Assembly: GCF_009497655.1 (NCBI RefSeq)
Contig: NZ_CP023317.1
Location: forward strand, 1,331,501 to 1,395,500
Source: Priestia megaterium
Lineage (GTDB): Bacteria > Bacillota > Bacilli > Bacillales > Bacillaceae_H
Direction of reading: 5' to 3'
Length of the DNA: 64,000 bases
In this document: positions 4,727-30,348 of the stretch, one piece after another
Layout of the letters: each line of letters starts with the position of its first letter
Position numbering within the stretch: position 1 is the stretch's first letter
Notes under the pieces: model-generated
Database searches by the model: none
What the model saw: only the letters and a program-made list of their open reading frames with translations
What the model was told of the DNA's origin: nothing
Made by a program: the position numbers and the translations under genes

Positions 4727-4963
4727 ATGTCACAATTACAAGGTATTTTAACTCGTCTTGTGAATCTCCGTGAGCAAGCAAGTGGAAGTGAAGCGCCACA
4801 ACGCTTCTTCGAAGTAGAGGGAAAAAGAATTTGCAGCGTGAAATATCATGCAAAAACTGAAACATACGAACTTGAAGTATATCAAGATGGTGAAAAGCCA
4901 GCTATTTATCAATTTGATAACGTTGATATGATTGCAATTGAAATTTTTGAACTTATTCATTAA
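4727..4963 (+). CDS. ykuJ: Conserved small protein YkuJ
   Basis: 78 residues, orthologous to B. subtilis YkuJ (DUF1797 family), a small cytoplasmic alpha/beta protein of unknown role. Conserved stretches include RFFEVEGKRICSVKY and a C-terminal FDNVDMIAIEIFEL. An upstream in-frame ATG exists at 4691, but the GAAAGGAGA site at 4712-4720 places the true start at 4727 and matches the family length. The gene ends at its own strong terminator. The neighbouring B. subtilis genes ykuK and abbA are missing here. Confidence 0.88.
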   Translation: MSQLQGILTRLVNLREQASGSEAPQRFFEVEGKRICSVKYHAKTETYELEVYQDGEKPAIYQFDNVDMIAIEIFELIH

Positions 4964-4980
4964 GGGATAAAGCAAAACGA

Positions 4981-5018
4981 ATGCCGCAAAGGATTTTATA
5001 CTTTGCGGCATTTTTTTG
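4981..5018 (+). terminator. Terminator after ykuJ
   Basis: ATGCCGCAAAG (4981-4991) pairs with CTTTGCGGCAT (5001-5011), followed by seven T. Confidence 0.9.
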
Positions 5019-5168
5019 TTACTGCGTATGGAGTTTTTGCGGTGGCTTCTGTCCTATTTTCCCGAGAAATACCGACAAAGTGATAGCGGATTTTCTGATA
5101 AATGGAAGGAAAGGGTCGAATGCTGTAAAAAAAACAAAATAAAAAATTCAGATAATTATGAACTTTCG

Positions 5169-5197
5169 TTGACACTTGTTTTAAAAAAATCTAGACT
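5169..5197 (+). promoter_or_regulatory. Sigma-A promoter of the darB leader
   Basis: TTGACA (5169-5174), 17-bp spacer, TAGACT (5192-5197). Predicted start near 5203, leaving about 140 nt of leader before darB. Confidence 0.65.
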
Positions 5198-5220
5198 TAA
5201 CATATAAGGGAGAACATCGA

Positions 5221-5286
5221 GTGTGTCTGCTTCTATTCCCTCTTAAAGGTTCGCATTTACGTAAGCAAGCTATTTTCATTTTGTAG
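5221..5286 (+). CDS. Candidate 21-residue leader peptide upstream of darB
   Basis: The GTG at 5221 follows an AAGGGAGA site (about 5206-5212) at good spacing and opens 21 codons ending in TAG at 5284-5286. The peptide begins VCLLLF, is hydrophobic and leucine-rich first and basic in the middle. The stop codon is the first triplet of the 3' arm of a terminator-like hairpin, so a ribosome finishing the ORF would disrupt that hairpin. This is the geometry of translation-controlled attenuation. It is an inference from sequence alone; such a short ORF could be accidental. Confidence 0.45.
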   Translation: MCLLLFPLKGSHLRKQAIFIL

Positions 5287-5297
5287 CTTGTTCTTTT
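5264..5297 (+). terminator. Terminator-like attenuator hairpin in the darB leader
   Basis: AGCAAGCTA (5264-5272) pairs with TAGCTTGTT (5284-5292, one G-U), loop of 11 nt, followed by a T-rich stretch (CTTTTTCTCTTT). It lies between the promoter and darB, so termination here would reduce darB expression. Confidence 0.6.
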
Positions 5298-5345
5298 TCT
5301 CTTTACACACGTGGAAGTTATGAGAAATGGAAGGAGAATGTATAA

Positions 5346-5801
5346 ATGATTGATATTGATCACAATCAGTTAAATCAAATTGAACTTCGAGATTTGCTTG
5401 TCACTTCTGATAAAGTTGCTCATGTTCAAGTGGGAAATAATTTAGAACATGCTTTGCTTGTGTTAACAAAGACTGGCTATACGTCCATTCCCGTATTAAA
5501 CCCAAGGTTTCAGCTGCAGGGGTTCGTGAGCATGACGCTTATTTTAGATTCGATTTTAGGGTTAAAGCGCATTGAATTTGAACGATTAGAAACCATGAAA
5601 GTAGAAGAAGTTATGAATCAAAATGTTCCTCGTGTCTCCATGAAAAAATCCGTATTAAAAGTCATAAATGCCATGATTAACCATCCTTTTTTGTGCGTAG
5701 AGAATGAAGATGGTATTTTTGAAGGGATTTTAACGCGAAGAAATTTGTTAAAGTCATTAAGGAGGCAGTCCATCATTCTCCCGAAAGAGTCATTTCAATA
5801 A
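5346..5801 (+). CDS. darB: CBS-domain c-di-AMP receptor DarB (YkuL/CbpB)
   Basis: 151 residues with two CBS motifs forming one Bateman module. It closely matches B. subtilis DarB over DKVAHVQVGNNLEHALLVL and the second motif (FLCVENEDGIFEGILTRR). In B. subtilis, apo-DarB stimulates the (p)ppGpp synthetase Rel and pyruvate carboxylase PycA, and c-di-AMP binding blocks both; I assume the same role. It acts in the cytoplasm. ATG start with GGAAGGAGAATG upstream. The leader carries a promoter, a small ORF and a terminator-like hairpin. PycA, one of its targets, is encoded in this window at 43.8 kb. Confidence 0.92.
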   Translation: MIDIDHNQLNQIELRDLLVTSDKVAHVQVGNNLEHALLVLTKTGYTSIPVLNPRFQLQGFVSMTLILDSILGLKRIEFERLETMKVEEVMNQNVPRVSMKKSVLKVINAMINHPFLCVENEDGIFEGILTRRNLLKSLRRQSIILPKESFQ

Positions 5802-5900
5802 TTTTTTTAAGAAATCGTGTTTCAGCCTATCTTTCTCCGTTTTTTTCTTATATGATAAAGGTAAAATGAAAGTAAAAAGAGGCTTGAAAGGAATAACTGA

Positions 5901-6779
5901 ATGCAATTAATAGAATGTCGAATGCTCGTTGTATTAGCTCAAGAATTAAATATGAGAAAAGCTGCAGAGAGATTATTTGTATCGCAACCAGCTTTATCAC
6001 AGAGGCTGCAAACCATTGAAAAAGCATGGGATACACAAATCTTCATTCGTTCGCAAAAAGGACTGTCATTAACGCCTGCTGGAGAAAAGATTGTTCAATT
6101 TGCAAAAGAAGTAGTAGAAAAAGAAGATCGGGTTCGCGAGGACTTGCATCATTTAGATAATGAAGTATATGGTACACTCAAATTAGCGGTGGCTTCGATT
6201 ATTGGACAGCACTGGCTGCCGGCGGTGTTAAAACGCTATATGGATCGTTACCCACATGCTAAAATCTCTCTTGTAACCGGCTGGAGCAGTGAAATGCTTC
6301 GCTATCTGTACGAAGATGAGGTACATATTGGAATCATACGCGGAAATCCGGATTGGAAAGGCGTCAAAGAACATTTGTTTACAGATCCTCTTTACCTAGT
6401 TGATTCAGAAATTGAAAGGGCAGCGGAAGTAGTAAATACTCATCGACCATTTATTCAATTTAAAAGTGACTCAACGTATTATCAAGAAATTTTAGAATGG
6501 TGGCATCGAGAGTTTCATACTACACCGAAGCGTACGATTGTAGTGGATCAGATTGAGACGTGTAAACAAATGGCTTTAAATGGTCTTGGTTTCGCTATTT
6601 TACCATCGATTGCTATCAAAGAAGCTGGAAGCCATATTCATCGGACGCCGCTTCTAAAAGCAAATGGCGAGCCAATTACACGAGACACTTCTTTAGTTGG
6701 ATATGAATCAGCGTTTAAACTGAAGCAAGTTCGAGCATTTGTTGATATTGTACGTGAATACGTAAGAGAAACGGTCTAA
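5901..6779 (+). CDS. ccpC: LysR-family repressor CcpC of TCA-branch genes
   Basis: 292-residue LysR-type regulator. The helix-turn-helix is at about 18-40 (MRKAAERLFVSQPALSQRL), followed by the effector domain. It is very similar to B. subtilis CcpC, which represses citrate synthase (citZ) and aconitase (citB) genes and is relieved by citrate. The conserved segment AVASIIGQHWLP begins the ligand domain. It follows darB as in B. subtilis. The ribosome site GAAAGGAATAACTG is 7-9 nt before the ATG. The flavodoxin genes ykuN-ykuP that follow ccpC in B. subtilis are absent. Confidence 0.94.
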   Translation: MQLIECRMLVVLAQELNMRKAAERLFVSQPALSQRLQTIEKAWDTQIFIRSQKGLSLTPAGEKIVQFAKEVVEKEDRVREDLHHLDNEVYGTLKLAVASIIGQHWLPAVLKRYMDRYPHAKISLVTGWSSEMLRYLYEDEVHIGIIRGNPDWKGVKEHLFTDPLYLVDSEIERAAEVVNTHRPFIQFKSDSTYYQEILEWWHREFHTTPKRTIVVDQIETCKQMALNGLGFAILPSIAIKEAGSHIHRTPLLKANGEPITRDTSLVGYESAFKLKQVRAFVDIVREYVRETV

Positions 6780-30126: not shown

Positions 30127-30183
30127 AATATCAAGAGTTGTAAAACGCTTACAAAAAAAGACGGTTAAAGGGGAGTTTACAAA

Positions 30184-30309
30184 ATGGGAACAATCGTATG
30201 TCAAACATGTAACTGCACAATTGATCATTTCGAAGATGAGAAAGTGACGCGATTATACTCAACATGTAAAAGCGGAGAATGTCAAAAAGCAGATGAAGAT
30301 TTAGATTAA
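30184..30309 (+). CDS. sr1P: GapA-binding peptide SR1P
   Basis: 41 residues beginning MGTIVCQTCNCTIDHFEDEK, clearly the SR1P family. Four or five Cys form a zinc-ribbon-like pattern (CQTC near 6-9 and Cys at 28 and 33). In B. subtilis the peptide binds glyceraldehyde-3-phosphate dehydrogenase GapA and promotes its interaction with RNase J1, whose gene rnjA is also in this window. Ribosome site AAAGGGGAG lies 8 nt before the ATG. The C-terminus is acidic and slightly longer than in B. subtilis. Confidence 0.9.
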   Translation: MGTIVCQTCNCTIDHFEDEKVTRLYSTCKSGECQKADEDLD

Positions 30310-30318
30310 TTCAATAAA

Positions 30319-30348
30319 AAAAGGTGCGGAATTCCGCACCTTTTTTTT
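30319..30348. terminator. Terminator of the SR1 RNA, shared with speA
   Basis: AAGGTGCGGAA (30321-30331) pairs with TTCCGCACCTT (30332-30342) as a perfect palindrome, followed by T8; A-rich on the other side. Confidence 0.92.

Follow-up and report, generated by a model that had tools for sequence, protein, structure and literature searches.

The leader of the darB gene in Priestia megaterium most probably consists of the promoter and terminator of abbA, which were left in place when abbA was lost, with darB likely read through the leaky terminator; a probability of roughly 0.7 is assigned to this reading. The window analysed is a stretch of 64,000 nucleotides, and all positions below refer to it unless another locus is named. 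Leader matches were found in six of 16 family genomes, five of them carrying the leader in full (G000, G001, G003, G006 and G008, referred to here as the megaterium group) and the sixth (G009) the promoter part only. The features of the locus are as follows:

4961-5018, plus strand: stop codon of ykuJ and, behind it, the strong terminator of that gene (hairpin 4980-5012 with U tract)
5114-5120, plus strand: Spo0A-box-like sequence GGTCGAA, matching TGTCGAA at 6/7 positions
5169-5197, plus strand: sigma-A-type promoter TTGACA-17-TAGACT, an orthologue of the abbA promoters in G007 and L010
5206-5212, plus strand: ribosome site of the short ORF, invariant in 5/5 genomes
5221-5286, plus strand: 21-codon ORF starting with GTG, its 5' half variable and its 3' part inside the old terminator
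5264-5304, plus strand: intrinsic-terminator hairpin with an interrupted U tract, an orthologue of the G007 abbA terminator
5346-5801, plus strand: darB/cbpB, encoding the c-di-AMP receptor with CBS domains (NCBIfam CBS_CbpB, E 4.1e-48)
5901-6779, plus strand: ccpC, the gene next after darB (NCBIfam)

According to an excerpt of PMC7900238, darB and ccpC share an operon that is conserved in B. subtilis and Listeria. In B. subtilis, DarB is reported to stimulate Rel to synthesise (p)ppGpp. The elements on which the original prediction of a translation-controlled attenuator had been built, namely a promoter of consensus spacing, a 21-codon ORF with a good ribosome site, a terminator-like hairpin and darB downstream, were all recovered. 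The promoter matched the consensus at 10 of 12 positions. For the ribosome site the duplex energy was computed as -8.8 kcal/mol, weaker than five of the six window genes checked (-9.6 to -12.8, with the sixth at -0.9). The hairpin comprised 10 pairs between arms at 5264-5273 and 5283-5292, with a stability of -11.1 kcal/mol that was equalled by none of 200 shuffled sequences (z -4.86), and was followed by a U tract interrupted by C; its omission from the terminator-scan list was probably owing to a loop longer than 8. The stop codon had been placed at the very beginning of the 3' arm. The TAG (5284-5286) does overlap this arm, but as its bases 2-4 at the loop end, the first forming a G-U pair, and not from base 1. 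Upstream, the ykuJ terminator hairpin had a stability of -18.3 kcal/mol, equalled by 0/200 shuffles, and is predicted to set ykuJ transcription apart from the darB leader.

The gene abbA, which encodes an AbrB antirepressor, was located between ykuJ and darB in three of the ten genomes of the genus as the search tool defines it (G005, G007 and G009); the same placement was seen in P. abyssalis (L003) and in L002, a near twin of it. Of the 80 fetched loci, 30 had abbA ahead of darB in the same orientation, and in 50 it was not found, so that the absence of abbA is not unusual; as the search ran with two AbbA queries over about 2 kb, the count of 30 is a minimum. The AbbA protein search gave no match in any of the five megaterium-group genomes, and none was obtained there with the PF14156 profile at E<=1, for which 4/14 control genomes were positive, including B. 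subtilis, with one over the cut-off. Although AbbA is absent, the AbrB/MazE DNA-binding family (PF04014) was matched seven times in the G000 genome, with two of these matches sharing a reading frame. G002 and G004 were found to be without both abbA and darB, with some 250 nt between ykuJ and ccpC; this gap lies at L121 1738-1983, with a matching gap in L119.

In a tree built from 17 ccpC protein rows, without G005 and G009 because their ccpC was truncated or missing in the loci fetched, the five leader genomes joined G007, G002 and G004 at 100/99. Inside that group only the five leader genomes were resolved together (100/100). Mapping the presence of abbA on this tree required at least two changes.

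Alignment of the leader with the abbA units of relatives revealed homology at both ends. With the abbA promoter of G007, the region before the ORF could be aligned across some 98 nt at a score of 80 (0/500 shuffles as good, the highest of them 32), and it scored 70 with the abbA promoter of L010 (0/500), 35 with that of L002 (0/500) and 30 with that of L003 (1/500); the score of 28 with L007 was not significant, 25/500 shuffles being as good. The hairpin side aligned with the terminators that follow abbA in G007 (score 35, 0/500), L003 (30, 0/500) and L002 (30, 1/500), and was not alignable to those of L007 (20, 59/500) or L010 (22, 20/500). Crossed comparisons gave scores of 16 to 26. The TAG is part of the hairpin stem, a feature shared by G007 and P. 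abyssalis, in which the hairpin simply comes after abbA. Because the promoter and terminator are homologous to those of abbA, and AbbA itself is absent, we infer that abbA was lost in the five genomes, and parsimony together with this homology favours loss over gain. That the hairpin separating the promoter from darB is a true intrinsic terminator is very likely, as judged from its alignment with the hairpins behind abbA in G007, L003 and L002 and from its invariance in all five genomes.

The segment between the two homologous ends, 5205-5263, gave no match better than shuffles with the 5' untranslated region and abbA of four relatives; since it matches no part of abbA there, the break points of the loss were not located. 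No abbA coding sequence or recognisable piece of it was detected in the leader, which would therefore be a remnant of the abbA flanks and not of the abbA gene. The possibility that the short ORF is a decayed AbbA was considered and rejected, as neither Pfam nor NCBIfam gave a match to the ORF up to E 0.1 and 5205-5263 did not align to abbA. No copy of the leader was found in the plasmid collection, and no exact copy of the promoter in viral contigs.

Promoter-like sites, ORFs and hairpins might also coincide in AT-rich intergenic DNA with no function at all. Such sites are frequent here (15 promoter-like sites in 3 kb compared with 9.8 expected), 90 ORFs of at least 20 amino acids overlap a 6 kb region, and the fold of the whole leader was no better than that of shuffled sequences (z -0.81 and -1.21). 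A coincidence of this kind is nevertheless highly improbable and is already contradicted by the homology of promoter and hairpin to the abbA parts and by the conservation of the leader across five genomes, and the z of -4.86 for the hairpin also stands against it.

The variation between the five genomes was unevenly distributed and the leader was free of indels. From the ykuJ stop to 5135, 14 of 172 positions vary; none of the 84 positions of 5136-5219 does so, while six changes fall in the 30 positions of 5220-5249 and none in the 96 positions of 5250-5345, leaving promoter and hairpin invariant in 5/5 genomes. The leader outside the ORF core (5136-5219 and 5250-5345, 0/180) differed from the upstream spacer (14/172) with a Fisher p of 3.3e-5, and 5250-5345 differed from the ORF core with a p of 1.2e-4, both values referring to boundaries drawn after inspection of the data and to a sample of five close genomes. 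For scale, fourfold sites vary at 1/27 in ykuJ, 4/54 in darB and 15/124 in ccpC. The leader is not alone in being invariant, since the spacer between darB and ccpC (5802-5900) is itself nearly invariant, with 1/99 positions varying compared with 15/456 in darB.

It was in the ORF that the alignment of leaders, proposed originally as a check on attenuation, gave a divided answer. The hairpin, the TAG and the open frame were kept in all five genomes, each of which also retained a start codon and an unchanged ribosome site, but the sequence of the ORF was not. Five of the six changes lie within the first ten codons: the start codon GTG to TTG (in G006), the substitutions C2R, L4F and G10D, and a silent change. 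The sixth affects a base just before the start. Conservation of the short ORF as sequence, as an attenuator would lead one to expect, was thus not observed. Five of the six variable sites of the leader fall within a predicted stem at 5205-5245, which would hide the ribosome site of the short ORF and was no better than shuffles (z 0.10).

According to the attenuator proposal, a ribosome translating the 21-codon ORF would cover the hairpin on reaching the stop codon and let transcription enter darB, and poor translation would allow termination. The good ribosome site at the usual spacing, the stop codon within the hairpin and the retention of frame, start codon and ribosome site in five genomes are all consistent with this. 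Its chance frequency was measured by shuffling 5198-5263 with the hairpin kept and counting ORFs that stop inside the hairpin arms (n=1000). ORFs of at least 8 codons with a ribosome site of -4 or better occurred in 110 of 1000 shuffled leaders, and those of at least 15 codons in 40; when the site had to be at least as strong as -8.8, the counts fell to 7 and 1 respectively, and as this cut was derived from the observed value the test overstates the surprise.

Several results weigh against the attenuator. The arrangement is made of abbA parts, and the six changes in 5220-5249, which touch the start codon and three amino acids, are the only ones in 5136-5345. No strong fold was found to compete with the hairpin: no mutually exclusive antiterminator of the vmlR type was detected, the hairpin forming in the free fold at -23.4 as compared with -11.3 when its 3' arm was kept open. 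Folding of the nascent RNA gave a weak helix of six pairs, 5248-5254 with 5265-5271, which takes up part of the 5' arm of the hairpin and in which one base changes in G006. In addition, excerpts of PMC9226507 state that RNA polymerase in B. subtilis moves faster than the lead ribosome, so that a ribosome would have to be given time by a pause. Control of darB by translation of the ORF was for these reasons not upheld: the parts come from the lost abbA unit, the TAG belongs to the terminator stem, and the 5' part of the ORF is variable. The attenuator is considered unlikely.

Promoters available to darB were sought in the window and in relatives. On the plus strand from 5198 to darB no promoter-like site of 9/12 was present, and a second darB promoter behind the hairpin was rejected on the same ground, none there reaching 9/12. 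Equal stretches of 106 nt before darB were scored in 79 of the 80 loci, L001 with the leader of the window being left out, and in 1580 shuffles. With an extended -10 adding 2, a score of at least 9 was reached in 60/79 relatives and in 313/1580 shuffles, while the window scored 5 and G007 scored 7; a score of 5 or less was also obtained in 55/500 shuffles of the window's own sequence. Plain hexamers matching at 9/12 were present in 16/79 relatives (20%) compared with 206/1580 shuffles (13%), a small difference, so that relatives stand out clearly from shuffles only when the bonus is counted. The darB promoters of relatives, if real, would be of the extended -10 kind. Since no 9/12 site lies downstream and the strong ykuJ terminator lies upstream, the likeliest promoter for darB is the old one of abbA.

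These observations also bear on the possibility that the promoter-terminator pair is an inert scar which makes only a short RNA, darB being transcribed from an unrecognised promoter or from ykuJ. The RNA would be roughly 95 nt long, with inferred ends at about 5204 and 5298, and might itself be a small RNA. This view agrees with the presence of a full promoter-terminator pair whose ends are conserved and whose middle varies. The strong terminator behind ykuJ and the plus strand before darB, with no promoter-like site of 9/12, speak against either source of darB transcription, and the small-RNA variant is disfavoured by the leader matching no Rfam family at gathering score. This explanation is regarded as quite improbable. 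The sole Rfam match at gathering score in the window was the SR1 small RNA at 30130-30347 (54.6 bits, gathering 45).

Spo0A~P controls abbA in B. subtilis (excerpts of PMC12421865 and PMC3667857), and the promoters were searched with the Spo0A-box consensus TGTCGAA, taken from an excerpt of PMC5295017. A site with at most one mismatch was located on the plus strand upstream of the -35 element in all seven promoters checked (the window, G007, L010, L007, L003, L002 and L077), against a background of 0.37 such sites per 130 nt on both strands. The site lies at -55 to -57 in four of them, at -46 in two near twins and at -15 in B. sonorensis, the window sharing the strand and nearly the spacing of the abbA promoters of G007, L010 and L007. 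The first base of the candidate box at 5114-5120 is A in G003, which still leaves a 6/7 match, and the base two positions before the box also varies.

The loss of abbA suggests the following course of events. An ancestor would have had the order ykuJ, abbA, darB and ccpC. In the megaterium group the abbA coding sequence would then have been lost, together with any darB promoter behind abbA, joining the abbA promoter and its Spo0A-box-like site through about 60 nt to the abbA terminator directly before darB. The gene would now most likely be transcribed from the old abbA promoter, whose activity is predicted from its sequence, part of the transcripts stopping at the old terminator and the remainder entering darB; a leaky terminator before darB is credible, and some attenuation of darB would follow if the leader promoter is used. 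Expression of darB would consist of read-through that tracks the activity of Spo0A~P, provided that Spo0A acts at the retained site. The short ORF would have no regulatory role. The good ribosome site of the ORF and its persisting frame are left unexplained by abbA loss, and this new short ORF with such a site may bring in control by translation as a further layer.

The darB leader would thus provide a concrete case of a regulatory leader formed by deletion of a gene from between its own promoter and terminator, and it illustrates that a promoter, a short ORF and a terminator before a gene need not represent an evolved attenuator. It also leads to the prediction that DarB follows Spo0A in the P. 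megaterium group. Among open PubMed Central papers none named both abbA and ykuL, those on megaterium and abbA included none apt by title, and no P. megaterium start-site map was among the matches listed.

In the pyrBI and ampC leaders of E. coli a ribosome near the leader stop codon disrupts the terminator hairpin, and these leaders rely on close coupling of transcription and translation. This type of mechanism corresponds to the original model for darB; the short ORF of darB is not conserved as sequence. Attenuation of the vmlR type in B. subtilis, as described in excerpts of PMC9226507, resembles the darB leader in having a short ORF with a ribosome site before an intrinsic terminator and the main gene downstream, but its ORF has three residues and acts by antibiotic-induced stalling with pausing, and it uses an anti-antiterminator and an antiterminator where only a weak alternative helix is predicted for darB. 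The abbA unit of other Bacillaceae shares with the leader its promoter, the upstream Spo0A-box-like site, the terminator and the genomic place, and differs from it in that the group of the window is without the abbA coding sequence and its terminator is followed directly by darB.
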